Source: Nitrosopumilaceae archaeon | GTDB taxonomy: Archaea; Thermoproteota; Nitrososphaeria; Nitrososphaerales; Nitrosopumilaceae | DNA: 58,034 nucleotides | Assembly (NCBI GenBank): GCA_011523285.1 | Contig: WTHC01000051.1 | Coordinates: forward strand, 1-58,034 | Direction of reading: 5' to 3' | Part shown: one piece after another, positions 10,053-43,419 of the stretch | How the letters are laid out: the number at the start of each line of letters is the position of its first letter | Position numbering within the stretch: the stretch's first letter is position 1 | Translations under genes and position numbers: made by a program | The notes under the pieces: model-generated | What the model was told of the DNA's origin: nothing | What the model saw: the letters and a program-made list of their open reading frames with translations, nothing else | The model's database searches: none

Positions 10053-10137
10053 GCAGAGATCGCTTAGCTTGGTATGGCGCGGGCCTTGAGAGCCTGTGTG
10101 TTATTAACACTCGAGGGTTCAAATCCCTCTCTCTGCG
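10053..10137 (+). tRNA. tRNA-Ser (anticodon TGA)
   Basis: Class II fold. Acceptor GCAGAGA/TCTCTGC, anticodon stem CGGGC/GCCTG closing loop CTTGAGA (anticodon TGA), long variable arm, T-arm GAGGG/CCCTC with loop TTCAAAT, discriminator G. The last 19 nt overlap the antisense 3' end of rfcS, whose stop codon lies in the T-loop. Confidence 0.95.
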
Positions 10138-11087
10138 TCATTTAAAGTACTTAATTCTGACAATAGTGCAGTTAATTGAATTTCAGGATTTGCTCCAACT
10201 AAAACCCTATAATCGTACTTTGCAATTGTTGTTATGATTTTATTCAAATTGTTTATTTTAATCTTAAAAACTGCTTGGTTCATAAATTTTAAAAAATCTA
10301 TTTCTGACATTCCATGCACTTTGATTAATTCAATCATTTTGTTACGTGCTTGTAAAATTTTTCCACCTAAAGCCAATGTTAATATTGTTTCTACTTCGTT
10401 TGTTTTGGTTAATCCTAGCACAGTCTTCACATTTTTTTTATTTATGCCGCCAATACTTGAAGTAGCTTGTAGTATATTTATAGCATGACGTAGATCTCCA
10501 TTAACGTAATCTGCTATCATTTTTAACCCCTCTTCATCATTTTTTATATTTTCGTTTTTAGATACAACACGTAAATGGGCAATAAGATCAACAGACAATA
10601 TTTTTGTAAATTTGAATACAGCGCATCTGCTTTGTAAAGGCTCTATAATTTTTGAAACATTATTGGCGATCAGGATGAATCTACAATATCTAGATGCATC
10701 CTCTATTATTCTACGTAACGCTGTTTGTGCATCAGACGTCATTTCATCTGCTTCATCTAATATTATCATCTTGAACGGAATGTCTACACTAAGTCCAGAA
10801 AACCTAGAAAATTTTTTGATTCTTTCCCGTACCATATTGATTCCTCGTTCATCTGATGCGTTTAATTCTAAAGTAAAATCTCTCCAATTTTCGCCTAAGA
10901 TTTCTTTGACAACACATAATGCTGTTGTAGTCTTACCAATTCCAGCAGAGCCTGAAAATAACAAATGTGGTAGCTCTCTTTCTTTTTTACAAAACGATAT
11001 TAAACTATGGATTATTTCTTTCTGATTAACAATTTCTGACATCTTAGAAGGTCTGTATTTTTCCACCCACATAATATTATCATACAT
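10119..11087 (-). CDS. rfcS: Replication factor C small subunit
   Basis: A 322-residue AAA+ clamp-loader subunit that loads PCNA. It opens WVEKYRPSKMSEIV, has Walker A GSAGIGKTT (residues 46-54), Walker B IILDEADEM, sensor 1 LIANN and the RFC box SRCAVFKF (Arg finger region), with a C-terminal collar domain. The partner large subunit is at 26255. The last six codons and the TGA stop lie inside the convergent tRNA-Ser gene, with the stop supplied by the antisense T-loop. Length matches archaeal RfcS, so the end is probably genuine. Confidence 0.96.
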   Translation of the reverse strand: MYDNIMWVEKYRPSKMSEIVNQKEIIHSLISFCKKERELPHLLFSGSAGIGKTTTALCVVKEILGENWRDFTLELNASDERGINMVRERIKKFSRFSGLSVDIPFKMIILDEADEMTSDAQTALRRIIEDASRYCRFILIANNVSKIIEPLQSRCAVFKFTKILSVDLIAHLRVVSKNENIKNDEEGLKMIADYVNGDLRHAINILQATSSIGGINKKNVKTVLGLTKTNEVETILTLALGGKILQARNKMIELIKVHGMSEIDFLKFMNQAVFKIKINNLNKIITTIAKYDYRVLVGANPEIQLTALLSELSTLNDAERGI

Positions 11088-25154: not shown

Positions 25155-26255
25155 GTGAGTAGTAAAAATGATATCGTATTTAAGAAAGAATCATTATTAA
25201 ACACCAAACCTGGACAACAAATAATTAAAAATAGATTATTCAAAACCAAGGGATACGAACAATTTATTAAATATCAAAAGGAGTCTGCTATAGAATTTAC
25301 CAAATTATCATCTAAGTTTACTAACGATCTATCTTTTTTAATTAAAACTGACTCTGATATGTATGATACACAACAAAAATTCTCTGATTTATACGGTTCA
25401 GAATTTGAATTAGAATCTTCTGTAATAGATTCAATTCGATCAAAATTAACAAATATAACCACTTTATCTGATCGAGTCTCACGTATACTTGATTCAAATT
25501 TTATCAAAATGACAATGCCAATATTTATGGCACTATATGATTCTGCGTCTATTTTCTATGACGATAATAATTCAACACTCCGTGAAAATCTTATATATGG
25601 TCATTTGGTTGCAATTGATCTAAGTGAACCTATGGATAGAATAATTGATAAAGATGAAGATTTAGATTATTTGAATGATTATAAATTCATGAATCCATAT
25701 ATTCTTAAATTAGCTAACGATCAAATATCTAAATGTGGTAATAATGTACTACGTGAATTCAATAATGGATTCAAAGAGGCTATAAACGGACAAAAAGCTG
25801 ATCGAGACTTAAAACTAAAACACGAAAATATTAAATCAGAAGAAATGGATTATTGCTATAAAAAATACCGTGCAGTTATTGGAACTGCTGGAAAAAATAT
25901 GGCTCTATGTCGATCTCCTCTGGGCGAGATATTCTACTTAGGTATGGCCAAAGCAGCAGAATGCACTGGATGTGGAAATGAAATTGAAGATGCTATAAGA
26001 AATAAATCGATTAAAGTACCATCTTGGCCTTTATATTTTTATTCGTTGACTGGAGATGTAGCAAAATGTTTTGAACTCACACTAAAAAAAAGCGAAATAT
26101 ATATCGAGGAAGCTCAAATTGCACTAGACATGCTCCCAGAAGATTTTTCACACAAAGAATTTCTCAAGTTTTTATTTCTTACTGTGAGACATTATAACCA
26201 TTTCTGGTATAATCAATTGAAGAAAGAAAATCTACAACAATTCGTGGCATCCTAA
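25155..26255 (+). CDS. Unknown protein co-transcribed with RfcL
   Basis: A 366-residue soluble, mostly helical, charged protein. I do not recognise a family. Features are a C-terminal half with AECTGCGNEIEDA (one CxxC), an aromatic stretch VPSWPLYFYSLTGDVAKCF and a late RHYNHFWYNQL. Start is a GTG at 25155. The stop TAA shares its last A with the RfcL ATG (26255), so translation is probably coupled. The context suggests a role tied to the clamp loader or replication, but nothing in the sequence proves it. Confidence 0.75.
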   Translation: MSSKNDIVFKKESLLNTKPGQQIIKNRLFKTKGYEQFIKYQKESAIEFTKLSSKFTNDLSFLIKTDSDMYDTQQKFSDLYGSEFELESSVIDSIRSKLTNITTLSDRVSRILDSNFIKMTMPIFMALYDSASIFYDDNNSTLRENLIYGHLVAIDLSEPMDRIIDKDEDLDYLNDYKFMNPYILKLANDQISKCGNNVLREFNNGFKEAINGQKADRDLKLKHENIKSEEMDYCYKKYRAVIGTAGKNMALCRSPLGEIFYLGMAKAAECTGCGNEIEDAIRNKSIKVPSWPLYFYSLTGDVAKCFELTLKKSEIYIEEAQIALDMLPEDFSHKEFLKFLFLTVRHYNHFWYNQLKKENLQQFVAS

Positions 26256-27400
26256 TGATCTGGTCTGATAAATATAGGCCCAGAAATATCTTCGATATGG
26301 TAGGTAATGAACAAGAGCGATTAAAAGTAGTAAACTGGCTCCAAAATTGGGACAAAGGTACAAAACCTCTTATGTTGATAGGGCCAGCTGGTGTTGGTAA
26401 AACTACTCTCGTAGATATATTGGCACAAAAATTAGAATATGATGTAATATCTCTCAATGCTAGTGATCTTCGAAATAAACAACAAATCACTGATATTCTA
26501 AATCCTATTTTAAATAATTTGAGCCTATTTGGCAAAGCTATTATCTTCATCGATGAAGTTGATGGAATACATGGAAGACATGATTATGGTGGAATAGACG
26601 CATTGATTAAAATTTTAAAAACACCTTTAATCCCAATAATATTAGCTGCAAATTCTGTAATTGCTGATAAAATGCAAAATATTAAAAAAGCTACTAAACA
26701 GATATATTTTCATAGTATACCTCCAAGACTTCTTTTATTATATTCTCTAGATATATTACAACATGAACAAACTACACTACCATATGATAAAATTAAACAC
26801 ATTGTTATTAACTCGAATGGTGATGCGCGATTCATGATTAATTCATTACAAACAGCAGTTACTGGCTCTAATCCTATACAAAAAAAATCATTCATAGATC
26901 AAAACATCGAAGAATCCATAAACAATTTTTTTGCAACGTCATCTGTGGATCAAGCTAGACAAATTTTGTATTCGTTCCAACTTGATCCATACATGAAGAT
27001 TAATGCATTTTATTCTAGTGTCATTAGTAATGTAATACATACTAATATGTTAAATAAAATACTACAATGTTTGTCAGAAGCAGATATTCTATATAAGCAA
27101 ATTTTAAAAACTCAATCGTGGCATTTGCTTAGGTATTTAAACGAAATACTCTTAGATATGTATATACCATCATCACATATAACATATGCAAAGTATAACT
27201 TACCGTGGCAATTAATCAACAAGATTAGGTTCAAGGGTAATAAAATTAAAAGACTTTCATTAGTTTTAGCTAAAAAATTTCATGTTTCATCTACCACATT
27301 CAGAATGTTCTATCTTCCATACTTGTTATTTTATTTAAATAACACAAAATTACACGATATAGACGAAAATCTTCAGGAGGAATTACATGAGTTGGCGTAA
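26255..27400 (+). CDS. rfcL: Replication factor C large subunit
   Basis: A 381-residue AAA+ protein. It starts WSDKYRPRNIFDMVGN, has Walker A GPAGVGKTT (residues 43-51), Walker B IIFIDEVDGIHG and sensor 1 AANS; the SRC motif of small subunits is absent, as expected for RfcL. The C-terminal collar domain is shorter than in many archaea and there is no PIP-box-like tail visible. It overlaps both neighbours. Works with RfcS (10119) to load PCNA. Confidence 0.93.
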   Translation: MIWSDKYRPRNIFDMVGNEQERLKVVNWLQNWDKGTKPLMLIGPAGVGKTTLVDILAQKLEYDVISLNASDLRNKQQITDILNPILNNLSLFGKAIIFIDEVDGIHGRHDYGGIDALIKILKTPLIPIILAANSVIADKMQNIKKATKQIYFHSIPPRLLLLYSLDILQHEQTTLPYDKIKHIVINSNGDARFMINSLQTAVTGSNPIQKKSFIDQNIEESINNFFATSSVDQARQILYSFQLDPYMKINAFYSSVISNVIHTNMLNKILQCLSEADILYKQILKTQSWHLLRYLNEILLDMYIPSSHITYAKYNLPWQLINKIRFKGNKIKRLSLVLAKKFHVSSTTFRMFYLPYLLFYLNNTKLHDIDENLQEELHELA

Positions 27401-27686
27401 AATAACTATCAAATTTACTGGAAAGTGTATTATTTGTAATAAACCTGTTAGCAGAGGTGAGACAGGACTATGGGCTAAAAATATAGGAATAAAACATACA
27501 AAATGTGTTAATAATAATGATGATGTAACTTGCATAATTTGTAAAGATAAAATTGCATGTTCTAGATGTGAATTTCATAATTATTGTAATACACAACTAG
27601 TCTCATATTGTATGTGTCAAAATTGTATGACAAACAATAAACTTATGGACGCATATAAAAAATCGTTGCACAATATTAAAATTTAA
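27387..27686 (+). CDS. Cysteine-rich small protein with two zinc-finger-like regions
   Basis: A 99-residue protein with 12 cysteines. The first module is C14xxC17 with H37xxC40 around WAKNIGIKHTKC; the second is dense: C49xxC52, C58xxC61, H64, C67, C75, C77 and C80. The spacing suggests two or three zinc sites, as in treble-clef or PARP-like fingers. No family recognised. ATG at 27387 lies inside the RfcL 3' end and follows AGGAGG, one of the best Shine-Dalgarno sequences in the window, so translation is probably coupled. Confidence 0.75.
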   Translation: MSWRKITIKFTGKCIICNKPVSRGETGLWAKNIGIKHTKCVNNNDDVTCIICKDKIACSRCEFHNYCNTQLVSYCMCQNCMTNNKLMDAYKKSLHNIKI

Positions 27687-27699
27687 CTATGATAACAAA

Positions 27700-28032
27700 A
27701 TGCGTATGGATGAAATAAAACCAAAAAATGAAAATAATGTAATGATAAACAATAATGCAGAAAAATCTACTTACTTGGTGCCAAATTATTCTCCACACCA
27801 TATTTTGAGTCCTGAATTCGAAGGGAAATCAAATTATGAAATGGGAATACAAGATCTTATAGCAGATTCTAATAACAAATTGAAAAGTTTAACGAACAGG
27901 AAATCATCGTCATCTAAAACGCAGCAACTAGTAGAAGATCTAAAAACTTTAAACTGTTTGTATGAGAATTATCATATAGGCATGAATGTATTCAGAACTG
28001 CAAAAGGTGGACGTGATAAACTACGTGTATGA
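27700..28032 (+). CDS. Unknown small polar protein downstream of RfcL
   Basis: A 110-residue protein rich in Asn, Lys and Ser, with a predicted disordered N-terminus and a C-terminal helical part ending TAKGGRDKLRV. No domain recognised. It follows the Cys-rich gene by 13 nt on the same strand and precedes the carboxylase operon by 38 nt. Codon use looks like its neighbours. Confidence 0.6.
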   Translation: MRMDEIKPKNENNVMINNNAEKSTYLVPNYSPHHILSPEFEGKSNYEMGIQDLIADSNNKLKSLTNRKSSSSKTQQLVEDLKTLNCLYENYHIGMNVFRTAKGGRDKLRV

Positions 28033-28070: not shown

Positions 28071-29624
28071 ATGTCTTCACATTTTGATAAAATAAATGAA
28101 TTGTTGCAAAAAACTAAACAAGCAGATAATGGCGGAGGTGCTAATAGAATTCAATCTCAACACGACAAAGGCAAACTAACAGCAAGGGAAAGACTGGATG
28201 TTTTATTAGACAATGATAGTTTTATTGAACTAGACAAATTAACCACCCATCACTATCATGAATTCAACATGCAACAGAAAAAATTTTTCGGAGACGGTGT
28301 TATTACTGGATATGGTAAAATAGCAGGCAGACAAGTTTGTGTATTTGCATATGATTTTACTGTACTTGGAGGTACTTTGAGCGATATGGGTGCAAAAAAA
28401 ATAACAAAATTGATGGATCATGCTATCAGAATAGGCTGCCCTATTATAGGAATAATTGACTCTGGAGGTGCAAGAATACAAGAAGGTATATTGAGTTTAG
28501 ATGGATTTGCTGATATTTTTTATCATAATGAATTGGCGTCTGGAATTGTACCTCAAATAACTGCGAGTATAGGTCCTTCTGCAGGTGGCGCGGTTTATTC
28601 GCCAGCTATGACTGATTTCGTAGTTATGGTTAATAAAACAGCTAGTATGTTTGTCACTGGACCTGATGTAGTCAAAACAGTACTTGGAGAAAGTGTATCA
28701 TTTGATCAATTGGGCGGTGCTATTACGCATGGTACCAAAAGTGGTGTGGCTCATTTTGTAGCGCAAAACGAATTTGAATGTATGGATTATGTTAAAAACC
28801 TACTTTCATTTATACCTCAAAACAACACAGACGTACCTTTGATTATTACTAACAAAGATGATCCAAATAGAATTGATAACAATTTAATAACTTATATCCC
28901 TGAAAACCCATTACAACCATACGATGTTATTAAAATCATTTCGTCTATTCTAGATAACAATCAATTCTTTGAGGCCCATAAACTATTTGCACAAAACATC
29001 GTTGTAGGGTTTGGGCGACTACATGGCAGATCTATAGGTATTGTAGCAAATCAACCAATGCATTTAGCAGGAGCATTAGATATAGATTCATCCAATAAAG
29101 CTGCACGTTTTATTAGATTCTGTGATTGTTATAATATACCAATTATTACTATAGTGGATACACCTGGATACATGCCTGGAACTGACCAGGAACATAATGG
29201 AATAATAAGACATGGAAGCAAATTACTTTACGCTTATTGTGAAGCTACTATTCCAAAAATAACATTAGTTATAGGAAAAGCATATGGTGGAGCTTATATT
29301 GCAATGGGAAGTAAAAACCTTCGAACAGACATAAATTATGCATGGCCTACAGCTAAAATAGCCGTATTGGGATCTGAAGCAGCAGTAAAAATAATGAATA
29401 GAAAAGATCTAGCCAATGCTGAAAATCCTGACGAACTGAAAAAGCAACTCACAGATGATTTCACCAAAAAATTCTCGAATCCATATGTTGCAGCTTCGCA
29501 TGGTAAAATAGATTCTGTTATTAATCCTGCTGAAACACGACCTATGTTGATTAAAGCTTTAGAACTACTTTCAAGTAAAAGAGATAAACAATTACCACGT
29601 AAACATGGTAACATTAACTTATGA
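28071..29624 (+). CDS. pccB: Acetyl-/propionyl-CoA carboxylase, carboxyltransferase subunit
   Basis: A 517-residue crotonase-fold carboxyltransferase (PccB type, fused alpha/beta halves). It opens with KGKLTARERLDVLLD, has the oxyanion elements GGARIQEG and SAGGAVYSPA in the N-half and PGYMPGTDQEHNGIIRHGSKLLYAY and GKAYGGAYIAMGSK in the C-half. In ammonia-oxidising archaea this enzyme carboxylates acetyl- and propionyl-CoA in the 3-hydroxypropionate/4-hydroxybutyrate cycle. ATG at 28071 follows GGTGAT. First of three genes. Confidence 0.93.
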   Translation: MSSHFDKINELLQKTKQADNGGGANRIQSQHDKGKLTARERLDVLLDNDSFIELDKLTTHHYHEFNMQQKKFFGDGVITGYGKIAGRQVCVFAYDFTVLGGTLSDMGAKKITKLMDHAIRIGCPIIGIIDSGGARIQEGILSLDGFADIFYHNELASGIVPQITASIGPSAGGAVYSPAMTDFVVMVNKTASMFVTGPDVVKTVLGESVSFDQLGGAITHGTKSGVAHFVAQNEFECMDYVKNLLSFIPQNNTDVPLIITNKDDPNRIDNNLITYIPENPLQPYDVIKIISSILDNNQFFEAHKLFAQNIVVGFGRLHGRSIGIVANQPMHLAGALDIDSSNKAARFIRFCDCYNIPIITIVDTPGYMPGTDQEHNGIIRHGSKLLYAYCEATIPKITLVIGKAYGGAYIAMGSKNLRTDINYAWPTAKIAVLGSEAAVKIMNRKDLANAENPDELKKQLTDDFTKKFSNPYVAASHGKIDSVINPAETRPMLIKALELLSSKRDKQLPRKHGNINL

Positions 29625-29633
29625 GGAGATAAA

Positions 29634-31127
29634 ATGATCAAAAAAATTCTGATAGCAAATAGGGGCGAAATAGCTCTTAGAATAATTAGAACATGTAATG
29701 TTTTAAATATAAAACCAGTGAGCATATATTCAGATGAAGATGTTAATTCTTTACACGTCAAAAAATCTCACGAATCATATTATGTTGGTAGCGCATCTCC
29801 TGCACAAAGCTATTTGAACCAAAACAAAATTATCGAAATAGCATTATCATCTGGTGCAGACGCAATACATCCAGGTTATGGCTTTCTGTCTGAAAACTCT
29901 GACTTCGCAGAACTTTGTGAAAAAAACAATCTTATATTTATAGGTCCAACCTCTAACTCTCTACAATTATGTGGAGATAAAATGCAATGTAAAAAAATAA
30001 TGAGAGATGCGCACGTTCCTACTGTTCCTGGAAGCTTTGATCTAGTAAAAAATGTTGAAACTGCATTAGATAATGCTAATAGCATTGGATATCCAGTTTT
30101 ACTTAAGTCTGTTTTCGGAGGAGGTGGACGTGGTATTCGTTTAGTGAACAATGATGACGAACTTAGAAATGCATTTGATCTAGCTACCAAAGAATCAATC
30201 ACGGCGTTTGGCAAATCTGCATTACTAGTCGAAAAATTCTTGCCTAAAATAAGACATATAGAATTTCAACTAGCACGTGATAAACAAGGTAATACCGTAC
30301 ATATATTTGAACGTGAATGCTCTATACAACGACGACATCAAAAATTAATTGAATTATCCCCGTCGCCAGTAGTATCTCAAAAAGTTCGCGATGAAGTAGG
30401 ACAATTAGCAATAAATGCAGTTGAAGCAGTCGAATATAGTAATCTTGGAACTGCTGAATTTCTTAGACTTGATGACGGAACATTCTATTTTATAGAAATA
30501 AACGCGCGTTTGCAAGTAGAACATCCTGTGACTGAGCTAGTATCTGGACTAGATCTGGTTAAATTACAAATAGATATAGCTAATGGCGAAACTATACCAT
30601 TTAAACAAAGTGATCTGAAACTTAATGGATGTGCAATAGAATGTAGAATAAATGCCGAAAATACATTTTTAGATTTTGCTCCATCTACAGGATTAGTTAA
30701 TGATGTTGTTTTACCATCTGGACCTGGAATAAGAACAGATACTTATCTATACACGCAATGCACAGTATCTCCATTCTATGATTCTTTAATCGCTAAATTA
30801 AATTCATGGGGCTCTGATTTTGATCAGGCTAGAAAGAGAATGGTTAACGCATTAATTGATTTTCATATACGTGGAATAGACACATCAATATCTCTATATA
30901 AAACAATTCTTACTAGCGACGAATTTATTAATGGTGACCTCTCTACAGACTTTCTTGATAGATTTGACATTTTAAACAGACTTGAAGATAATATAAAAAA
31001 TGAAATTGCTAGCAAACAGGATATAGCATTAGCAGCAGCCTCATTACATTCTATGCTTTATAATTCAAAAATATCAAAATACCATAAGCAAAATACAAAT
31101 TGGGATCATCAGATGTATGGCTTATGA
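29634..31127 (+). CDS. accC: Acyl-CoA carboxylase, biotin carboxylase subunit
   Basis: A 497-residue ATP-grasp biotin carboxylase. It begins KKILIANRGEIALRIIRTC, has the Gly-rich ATP loop GGGGRGIR, the HIEFQLARD and ERECSIQRRHQK region (catalytic Glu/Arg), EINARLQVEHPVTE and ECRINAE. It carboxylates the biotin on the BCCP encoded next. ATG at 29634 follows GAGGAG. The stop overlaps the BCCP start (ATGA). Confidence 0.95.
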   Translation: MIKKILIANRGEIALRIIRTCNVLNIKPVSIYSDEDVNSLHVKKSHESYYVGSASPAQSYLNQNKIIEIALSSGADAIHPGYGFLSENSDFAELCEKNNLIFIGPTSNSLQLCGDKMQCKKIMRDAHVPTVPGSFDLVKNVETALDNANSIGYPVLLKSVFGGGGRGIRLVNNDDELRNAFDLATKESITAFGKSALLVEKFLPKIRHIEFQLARDKQGNTVHIFERECSIQRRHQKLIELSPSPVVSQKVRDEVGQLAINAVEAVEYSNLGTAEFLRLDDGTFYFIEINARLQVEHPVTELVSGLDLVKLQIDIANGETIPFKQSDLKLNGCAIECRINAENTFLDFAPSTGLVNDVVLPSGPGIRTDTYLYTQCTVSPFYDSLIAKLNSWGSDFDQARKRMVNALIDFHIRGIDTSISLYKTILTSDEFINGDLSTDFLDRFDILNRLEDNIKNEIASKQDIALAAASLHSMLYNSKISKYHKQNTNWDHQMYGL

Positions 31128-31639
31128 CTGAATACAAAATAGAAAATATTAATAATACCATCTCTAATGCTGATATAATTAAACAATTATCAGATCATGA
31201 ATTCGTTATCAATATTAATAATACTGAAAAAAATATCAATGTAATTAGTGTATTTGCTGATTCCATTGAGTTCATGTTGTCTAATACTTATCATATAGCA
31301 AAATATGTAGAACGATCAAGCTCTAAGATCAAATTGATAGTTGACGGAATACCAATTACATTAACAACTCATCACAAACTTAACGATGTGGTTTATAAAA
31401 ATTCTGGGGGATCTGTGGCTGATGCACAAACAAATCTAATTAGCCAAATACCTGGCAAAGTTATTTCTGTCAAAGTTGATGAAAATACAGAAGTAAAAAA
31501 AGGAGATATTATATGCGTATTAGAATCAATGAAAATGCAAGTTTCTGTTAAATCTCATAAAGATGGGGTCGTCAAGAAGATTAATGTCAAAACTGGATCT
31601 GCTGTAGCTAAGAATGACACAATTGCAGAAATTGAATAA
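31124..31639 (+). CDS. Biotin carboxyl carrier protein of acyl-CoA carboxylase
   Basis: A 171-residue protein with a C-terminal biotinyl domain. The biotinylated Lys is in VLESMKMQV, flanked by the expected IPGKVISVKVDENTEVKKGD and a terminal TIAEIE. The N-terminal 90 residues resemble the linker domain that docks on the carboxyltransferase. ATG at 31124 overlaps the accC stop by 4 nt; the frame continues upstream inside accC. Confidence 0.93.
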   Translation: MTEYKIENINNTISNADIIKQLSDHEFVININNTEKNINVISVFADSIEFMLSNTYHIAKYVERSSSKIKLIVDGIPITLTTHHKLNDVVYKNSGGSVADAQTNLISQIPGKVISVKVDENTEVKKGDIICVLESMKMQVSVKSHKDGVVKKINVKTGSAVAKNDTIAEIE

Positions 31640-41096: not shown

Positions 41097-42569
41097 ATGA
41101 TAGAAATTACATCTACTCCAATTGTTTTAATAATTGTTCTAGGAATTGCAGGTGTAATATTGCCAATAATAAGCATAACCAGAAAAAACGTCTCTTCAAA
41201 GTTGTATGGTGCAATCTCTTTGGCAGTTTTAATATCGTCTATATTATTTGTTATATATCAATTAACTTCATCTGCAATATTGTCGTCGTTTTCTGAAGAT
41301 GTATTAACTGTAGATCTTCTTGGAGATTTATTCGCTATTTCCATGTTGTTGGTAGCAATTATGACTACCGTAGGCTCATTTGATTTTATACGTAAAAAAT
41401 CTTATTCTTCAATATATTTCTCATTGATTTTACTATCCACAATTGGTATGGTATTGGTTGCATACTCTACAGATTTGGTAATGCTTTTTGTTGCATGGGA
41501 ATTAATGAGTATTCCTACTTACATATTAGCTGGATTTTTGAAAAAGAATCCCAGTTCAAATGAAGCGGCATTAAAATACTTTTTATTCGGAGCATTATCT
41601 TCCGCAATAATAATTTATGGGATATCTATTACATATGGCATTACTGGTTCCACTAACATATCTGAAGTTATACGAGTTTTTTCCACAATAGATGCCGAAA
41701 TGTTGCCGTTGGCATTATTAGCAGTATCTATGTTTATAGCTGGATTTGGTTTTAAAATGGGGCTCGTTCCATTTCACATGTGGCTTCCAGATACATATGA
41801 AGGTTCTCCTCCCACTATAACGGCTTTATTAGCTGCAGGCACTAAAAAAGCTGGATTTGCAGCTGCTATAAGAATAATAATAATTGGTACGATTGCCTTA
41901 AATTTTGATTGGACTTTAGCTCTAGGAATTATTGCAATAATGACAATGACGATTGGTAATATAGCTGCCATCATGCAAAAAAATCTCACAAGAATGTTAG
42001 CTTATTCTAGTATAGGACATGCTGGCTACATATTAATTGGCTTAGCCACGTATCCATTGTCCAATATTGGACTTCAAGGATCATTGTTTCATATAATTAA
42101 TCATGCTGTGATGAAATGTGCTGCTTTTATTGCAGTAACAGGTATCATAATTACAATCAAAACAACTTATATAGATAAAATAAAAGGATTAGGCGTTAGA
42201 ATGCCAATAACCGCATTGGGGCTTACTATTTCTTTATTGGCATTAGCTGGAGTGCCGCCTCTAAACGGATTTTGGAGCAAATTAATGTTATTTGGTGCTG
42301 CACTTGATGCAGGATCTACGTATTCATGGATATATTGGCTTGCGATAGCAGGTGTTCTTAACAGTGCTTTGTCTTTAGCATATTATGGATGGGTTATAAG
42401 GAAAATGTATTTTGAGGGTGATCGCACAATCTCAATTAAAGAACCTAAATCTATAATCTCAGTAATGATATTTTCTATATTGTTTATTGTTGGAGTTGGA
42501 GTTTATCCAGATCTAATAATTCAATTTACAGAAAAAATAATATTTCAACTAACTATGGCACTGAATTAA
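41097..42569 (+). CDS. nuoN: NADH-quinone oxidoreductase-like subunit N
   Basis: A 490-residue antiporter-like subunit. It shows AWELMSIPTYILAGF, FKMGLVPFHMWLPDTYEGSPP, and IMQKNLTRMLAYSSIGHAGY. ATG at 41097. Last gene of the nuo operon; its 3' end overlaps the convergent prenyl synthase by 17 nt. Confidence 0.95.
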   Translation: MIEITSTPIVLIIVLGIAGVILPIISITRKNVSSKLYGAISLAVLISSILFVIYQLTSSAILSSFSEDVLTVDLLGDLFAISMLLVAIMTTVGSFDFIRKKSYSSIYFSLILLSTIGMVLVAYSTDLVMLFVAWELMSIPTYILAGFLKKNPSSNEAALKYFLFGALSSAIIIYGISITYGITGSTNISEVIRVFSTIDAEMLPLALLAVSMFIAGFGFKMGLVPFHMWLPDTYEGSPPTITALLAAGTKKAGFAAAIRIIIIGTIALNFDWTLALGIIAIMTMTIGNIAAIMQKNLTRMLAYSSIGHAGYILIGLATYPLSNIGLQGSLFHIINHAVMKCAAFIAVTGIIITIKTTYIDKIKGLGVRMPITALGLTISLLALAGVPPLNGFWSKLMLFGAALDAGSTYSWIYWLAIAGVLNSALSLAYYGWVIRKMYFEGDRTISIKEPKSIISVMIFSILFIVGVGVYPDLIIQFTEKIIFQLTMALN

Positions 42570-43419
42570 ATTTAGTAAATTCAATCAAATTTTCTAAACT
42601 GGTTTTTGCACTATTACTATCAAATCTGGCTAGATTCTTTGTAGCCCTATTTGAGTATATATTAAGCAAATTCTCCATATGATCAAAAATATTACGTGGA
42701 TCCGAGCTGTTTTTTATTAATAGATTGAATAATTTTTCTTCGTTATTCCAATCATGTAGATCATCATTTATTTGGTATGCTATCCCAATATTCTTACCAT
42801 ATTCAGATATAGCTTTAATTTCGTTCTCGTTTCCACAATTTATTATACCGCCTAGTTTAGACGCAGCTTCAAACACACTGGCAGTTTTGTATTCTATCAC
42901 TTTGATATAATCGTCAAATGTTATATCTTCATTTGTTTGTAATCTATTTTCCATCATCTCTCCCTCACTCATTAACATTGCAGTTGATGCTAAATTCTTA
43001 GTTACAATATGATTGTTGATTTTGGATGATATGTTTAATATTAGCCCTAGCACAAAGTCGCCAGTTAGAATGCTTGTATTATAACCATATTTTATGTGAA
43101 AAGGCTCTTTACCTCTTCTTCCATATTCGTTATCTATTATATCATCATGTATTATAGATTCTGTATGAAGTAATTCTACTGCACATGATGCCATATATGC
43201 TGTCTTATTTGCTGTGCCAATACATTCTGCACTTAATATAAGAATTAATGGTCTGATCCTCTTGCCATTATCTATTGCATATCTCAGAGGGCCTATAAAT
43301 TCTGAATTAGAATATGTGTTTAACTCATCATACAGTGTAGTATTAATATTATTGATATATTTTTCATAGTTATTGATTAATGAATTGATAGCAAAGTTTT
43401 TGTCCAAAAACCAACACAT
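42553..43419 (-). CDS. Polyprenyl (geranylgeranyl-type) diphosphate synthase
   Basis: A 288-residue all-helical trans-prenyltransferase. The first Asp-rich motif is HDDIIDNEYGRRGK (DDxxD plus RRG) and the second is NDDLHDW. It elongates allylic diphosphates with IPP; C20 products would feed archaeal ether lipids. Residues before the first motif (VELLHTESI) lack large aromatics right before DDxxD (Ile-His), compatible with a longer product, but chain length is a guess. Confidence 0.9.
   Translation of the reverse strand: MCWFLDKNFAINSLINNYEKYINNINTTLYDELNTYSNSEFIGPLRYAIDNGKRIRPLILILSAECIGTANKTAYMASCAVELLHTESIIHDDIIDNEYGRRGKEPFHIKYGYNTSILTGDFVLGLILNISSKINNHIVTKNLASTAMLMSEGEMMENRLQTNEDITFDDYIKVIEYKTASVFEAASKLGGIINCGNENEIKAISEYGKNIGIAYQINDDLHDWNNEEKLFNLLIKNSSDPRNIFDHMENLLNIYSNRATKNLARFDSNSAKTSLENLIEFTKFNSVP

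Follow-up and report, generated by a model that had tools for sequence, protein, structure and literature searches.

Replication genes cluster with rfcL, the gene for the large subunit of replication factor C (RFC), in some archaeal lineages; the portions of a 2008 survey available to us describe rfcS-rfcL clusters and cdc6 (PMC2643942). The rfcL studied here is itself ordinary. Unlike in those operons, rfcS lies far from rfcL, and the constant neighbour is a gene for a small zinc (Zn) protein, which the same portions of the survey do not mention (PMC2643942).

The protein encoded 5′ of rfcL, P1, is most comparable to the trans-isoprenyl diphosphate synthases (PF00348), such as FPPS, GGPPS and hexa-/heptaprenyl diphosphate synthase. 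Over almost its entire length P1 is predicted to share their fold, with the helices in matching order, and in weak alignments the GQxxD motif, a Lys and the leading Asp of the second motif coincide. It differs from them in having DRIxD in place of DDxxD and D(A/S)Ixx as the second motif, in lacking the RRG motif, and in an N-terminal extension of about 50 residues. Either DDXXD or DXXXD is typical of trans-prenyltransferases; non-catalytic small subunits have neither (PMC7839719). MoeN5 and YtpB/BalTS, a sesquarterpene cyclase, are precedents for an isoprenoid-synthase fold in which the metal motifs are altered or absent while prenyl coupling or cyclisation is retained (PMC7839719). However, both are missing from the 50 best structural matches to P1, their motifs differ from those of P1, and no sequence similarity between them and P1 was found.

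Results and Discussion

Organization of the rfcL locus

The window, the whole stretch of 58,034 nucleotides analysed here (contig C51 of genome G000), contains rfcL and its three neighbours in the order P1, rfcL, Zn gene, P110 (Table 1). All four reading frames of the preliminary description were confirmed. The identity of RfcL is solid (NF003229, 2e-72 in the NCBIfam profile search). P1, the Zn protein and P110 gave no significant match in the Pfam and NCBIfam profile searches, in line with their earlier listing as unrecognised proteins. RfcL of the window has no C-terminal PIP-like motif.

Table 1. Features of the rfcL locus and other genes of the window mentioned in the text
Feature	Position	Strand	Size	Remarks
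rfcS	10119-11087			Far from rfcL
Gene divergent from P1	24280-25083	-		Inositol-monophosphatase-like by eye
P1	25155-26255	+	366 aa	GTG start; AOA-specific; predicted fold of class I isoprenoid synthases (trans-isoprenyl diphosphate synthase type)
rfcL, replication factor C large subunit	26255-27400	+	381 aa	NF003229 match
Shine-Dalgarno-like GGAGG stretch	27376-27381	+		Inside the rfcL end, just 5′ of the Zn protein start; read from sequence
RfcL-linked zinc (Zn) protein	27387-27686	+	99 aa	CCHC knuckle and C-terminal 8-Cys domain
P110	27700-28032	+	110 aa	Variable N-terminal part and AOA-specific helical-hairpin domain of about 65 aa
Carboxyltransferase gene	28071-29624	+		Family name from sequence motifs
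Biotin carboxylase gene	29634-31127	+		Family name from sequence motifs
Biotin carrier gene	about 31124-31639	+		Family name from sequence motifs
Ordinary short prenyl diphosphate synthase	42553-43419	-	288 aa	HDDIID motif

P1 and rfcL overlap by 1 nt (TAATG), rfcL and the Zn gene by 14 nt, and the gap between the Zn gene and the P110 gene is 13 nt. These tight junctions had been taken as a sign of coupled translation. In the window they are unremarkable, as 20 of the 36 same-strand neighbours lie within 10 nt of each other and nine overlap. Since tight spacing is common in this genome, the weight of the argument rests on conservation across genomes.

The source genome is 0.83 Mb in size, 93.7% complete, and carries amoA; its nearest named relative is the thaumarchaeote MAG COS1_bin_11. 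Genomes of the same genus are 0.8 Mb, and the small size suggests a reduced, possibly host-associated lineage. In most Nitrosopumilaceae loci a divergent gene of about 266 codons stands 5′ of P1, leaving a short shared upstream region (71 bp here).

Distribution of P1 and conservation of gene order

Gene order was compared in four families of ammonia-oxidizing archaea (AOA), f1, f2, f3 and f8. The order P1-rfcL-Zn is retained in all AOA genomes in which the locus is assembled, so the neighbourhood is conserved as the preliminary description had proposed to check. P110 and/or the carboxylase genes then follow, the latter being the next genes downstream in most AOA loci. P1 and rfcL are adjacent in 75 of 75 AOA loci that have both, with a spacing of −4 nt in 38 and of +5 to +8 nt in 30 (68 of 75 together), and at the rfcL-Zn junction 72 of 75 loci show an ATGA overlap of 4 nt. 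The conservation of both the adjacency and the overlap across genomes exceeds chance.

P1 was present in 42 of 61 relatives, and amoA likewise in 42 of 61. Its presence tracks amoA with two exceptions, both explained by assembly gaps: G016 has amoA and misses P1 together with rfcL, and G031, a genome 84% complete, has P1 without amoA. A survey of 300 genomes of the phylum gave an all-or-nothing picture. Where P1 was found, the match was very strong (most beyond E 1e-140), and every such genome belongs to the AOA families; none of the non-AOA genomes sampled has it, though rfcL is universal. When 84,980 species genomes were scanned, 265 relatives were detected. One contig among the best 80 of these (L112, JAGXRG010000077.1), labelled Chitinophagaceae bacterium, encodes an AOA-type P1 with 58% identity and is probably a mis-binned archaeal contig. 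The AOA are a single clade; the co-occurrence of P1 with amoA thus counts as a single event in evolution and does not point to ammonia oxidation in particular.

In non-AOA Nitrososphaeria (L054, L056, L058 and others) the order is endA, the gene of a tRNA splicing endonuclease, then a UbiA prenyltransferase gene, rfcL and the zinc protein gene. AOA carry P1 where endA and UbiA stand in these relatives, and P1 therefore arrived, or replaced both, in the AOA ancestor. The 282-residue protein encoded 5′ of rfcL in non-AOA genomes was considered as a P1 homologue and rejected; it is UbiA (1.9e-37), preceded by endA.

P1 is predicted to have an isoprenoid synthase fold

An AlphaFold (AF2) model of P1, built from an alignment of the window protein and 37 relatives, is all-helical, with pLDDT 89.2 and pTM 0.88. 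In a Foldseek search against the PDB, the 50 best matches consist entirely of bacterial, archaeal and plant isoprenyl or prenyl diphosphate synthases, with probability 1.00, E values of 2.7e-4 to 3.6e-3 and TM scores of 0.42-0.57 by query. Trans-prenyltransferases also rank first and second in an independent viral structure library. By its model, then, P1 has the all-alpha isoprenoid synthase fold.

Sequence comparison by itself does not place P1 in PF00348, and that assignment failed: none of 19 P1 proteins matched the profile even at E 10, and the hhalign score of P1 with prenyl synthases was equalled by 18 of 100 block-shuffled controls. In a HMMER search of PDB sequences with the P1 profile, the sole matches were prenyl synthases, at weak E values of 0.39-0.97. 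The profile searches with the 19 members detected no AAA+ or RFC-collar homology, and the fold differs; one member had a chance-level match (0.042) to a Cdc6/ORC lid model.

The preliminary description viewed the operon as a candidate replication-linked module. If the whole operon were such a module, P1 would be a clamp-loader or replisome component that re-uses a helical fold. In every AOA family it stands directly 5′ of rfcL, in many cases with 4 nt in common; this speaks for such a role, and adjacency throughout the AOA could mean more than co-expression. However, the modelled fold matches prenyl synthases only, and the residues of the putative metal site are conserved. In addition, rfcL is universal but P1 is confined to the AOA, and closely packed genes are usual in this genome. 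With endA and UbiA in its place in non-AOA relatives, P1 is probably not a replication protein, and we consider the replisome role quite improbable.

The putative active site of P1

Nineteen diverse AOA P1 sequences all share D161, D165, D216, K237 and D279, and a strongly conserved acidic block, GHxxAIDLSEPMDRIxDxDED, is kept as well. In the weak HMMER alignment to PDB sequences, G212-Q213-x-x-D216 is paired with GQxLD of the prenyl synthases. The stretch YKKYRAV falls on the KTG stretch by which they bind substrate, and D279 on the leading Asp of the second Asp-rich motif (the SARM position). The FARM-like D161-R-I-x-D165 is paired with DDIID by hhalign and fits DxxxD, in an alignment that is itself non-significant. 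Since shuffled controls score equally, the exact placement of the motifs is provisional.

The second Asp of the first motif is missing in P1, R162 standing in its place. The second motif, DDxxD of helix H, is reduced to D279, with A or S at position 280. Given these two missing residues and the absent RRG motif, P1 could be a non-catalytic subunit. Like HexA, HepS and the plant small subunit, it would pair with an ordinary AOA synthase and set chain length, for example of the menaquinone side chain. Such subunits keep the fold at about 15% identity (PMC7839719), and potential partners are at hand: ordinary prenyl synthases are encoded in every AOA genome searched, one at the least and in almost all cases two. 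Small subunits, however, are described without DDXXD or DXXXD (PMC7839719), whereas P1 keeps an invariant DxxxD, D279 and the acidic block, and in the genomes seen its gene has no canonical synthase gene next to it. We regard a regulatory subunit as unlikely. On balance P1 is more probably an enzyme than a scaffold, and its model makes it an additional, diverged member of the isoprenoid-synthase fold beside the ordinary synthases of the AOA. The source genome itself carries the short synthase of Table 1 and a second, longer one on contig C29.

The enzyme that forms the cyclohexane ring of crenarchaeol is not known (PMC12909067). Because of this, and as both P1 and crenarchaeol are AOA traits, P1 was considered for that role. 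NMR of crenarchaeol assigns A19′ as a ring methylene next to the quaternary carbon A15′ (PMC8361987). These assignments imply that the ring is closed via a former methyl group, which suits the radical-SAM chemistry of Grs (PMC9385802) and not cation chemistry. Together with a co-distribution that spans one clade and so counts as a single event, this ring chemistry makes P1 an improbable cyclohexane synthase of crenarchaeol, at roughly one chance in fifty, and the role was set aside.

The zinc protein linked to RfcL

The Zn protein of the window had been described as having 12 Cys; the actual count is 11 Cys and one conserved His. C14, C17, H37 and C40 form an N-terminal CCHC zinc knuckle of the C1/LIM type, and the C-terminal domain has eight Cys (C49, C52, C58, C61, C67, C75, C77 and C80). 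One CCHC site and eight further Cys would suffice for three metal sites. The AF2 model is mediocre (pLDDT 70.5). The knuckle resembles C1/LIM/RING knuckles (MgcRacGAP C1, LMO2, ZNRF1) over about 40 residues, in weak, short matches with E of 0.01-0.3.

In non-AOA Nitrososphaeria and in the AOA families f2 and f3, the protein has 115-140 residues, an N-terminal domain of another type, and eight near-invariant Cys in the C-terminal domain. In families f1 and f8 the N-terminal domain has been replaced by the CCHC knuckle GKCxxCx..WxKGxGxKHxxC. Neither the C-terminal 8-Cys domain nor the ancestral N-terminal domain has a significant match to anything; one weak match of the latter to a HARP-like domain (0.049) is not claimed as homology.

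The gene stands directly 3′ of rfcL in families f2, f3, f4, f7, f12, f13 and f15. Outside the order, among genomes with a match, it does so in 14 of 14 genomes of f18 and in one genome of f31. To judge from these occurrences, the zinc proteins form an unnamed family whose place behind rfcL is older than the class Nitrososphaeria. In the one-contig genome G007 (L034:7007-8479) the rfcL stop codon is gone, and RfcL and the Zn protein are fused in frame into 490 residues, with the internal MSW start still present. This fusion is seen in a single genome, a search for another of that genus having found none; one base could make or break it, and it could be a sequencing indel.

A PIP box in the zinc protein was hypothesized and rejected, as the strict PIP-like motif is found in the last 45 residues of none of 95 zinc proteins; that of L193 ends QGTLDLFG, one residue short of it.

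The link to rfcL could also be historical operon inertia, with the zinc protein working elsewhere, for instance in transcription or RNA processing. The two-domain make-up has changed freely, the N-terminal domain being replaced in f1 and f8, and a C1/LIM-like knuckle is generic. Yet the adjacency is class-wide and extends to two outside families, the 4-nt overlap is near-invariant in the AOA, and there is one apparent fusion. We hold inertia to be rather unlikely. From the deep adjacency, the fixed overlap and the one apparent fusion, the zinc protein is likely to work together with RfcL, and it is a credible candidate for a clamp-loader partner.

P110

The last 65 or so residues of P110 are an AOA-only helical hairpin ending in LYENYxxGMxxFRxxKGgR, for which family searches gave nothing beyond coiled-coil noise. 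It is probably a protein-interaction module. In f2, f3 and f8 the domain is a free protein of 67-76 residues encoded directly 3′ of the zinc gene. Many f1 genomes instead encode it within a protein of 190-262 residues, up to 6.6 kb away. In many Nitrosopumilaceae (L046:2736-3488, L033:11218-12003 and others) the domain ends this larger protein, which has a long charged, Ala/Glu-rich N-terminal part, and the gene is kilobases from the rfcL operon. P110 is only loosely tied to the operon and has moved away in many genomes.

A proposed composite operon

We propose, with a probability of about 0.6 for the explanation as a whole, that the locus is a composite AOA operon and not one replication machine. 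Its old core would be rfcL and the zinc protein gene directly 3′ of it. Most likely the zinc protein is a clamp-loader accessory whose synthesis is tied to that of RfcL by translational coupling, and it may bind RfcL, DNA or both where the clamp is loaded. The P1 gene would have taken its place just 5′ of rfcL in the common ancestor of the AOA. P1 is most likely a metal-dependent enzyme whose active site has been rebuilt and whose substrate would be a prenyl diphosphate or some other isoprenoid; catalysis, substrate and product are all putative. It would share the operon for co-expression, not for binding to the clamp loader. P110, with its AOA-only helical hairpin, probably serves protein interaction and has loose ties to the rest.

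Of the single replication module first envisaged, the link of the zinc protein to RfcL stands, by its position inside and outside the order and by the one apparent fusion; a place for P1 in it is not supported, and P110 is not obligately linked. The preliminary description had held that neighbours differing in related genomes, or matches to unrelated known families, would speak against such a module. This is the case for P1 and, in part, for P110.

A more specific reading, to which we give somewhat less than even odds, is twofold. P1 would be the founding member of a new class I isoprenoid synthase family, universal in and exclusive to the AOA, that uses a rebuilt metal site for a prenyl reaction peculiar to these archaea. 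The zinc protein would be an undescribed accessory factor of RFC-L in Nitrososphaeria and sister lineages.

The locus thus contributes two new families, one with a predicted prenyl-synthase fold and a presumed enzymatic function, the other a zinc protein linked to RfcL. P1 is better conserved than RfcL (77% against 65% in G001) and is retained even in a genome of 0.83 Mb, and it can now be assigned to a biochemical class open to testing. As for the zinc protein, it is a concrete candidate for an unrecognised partner of the archaeal clamp loader.
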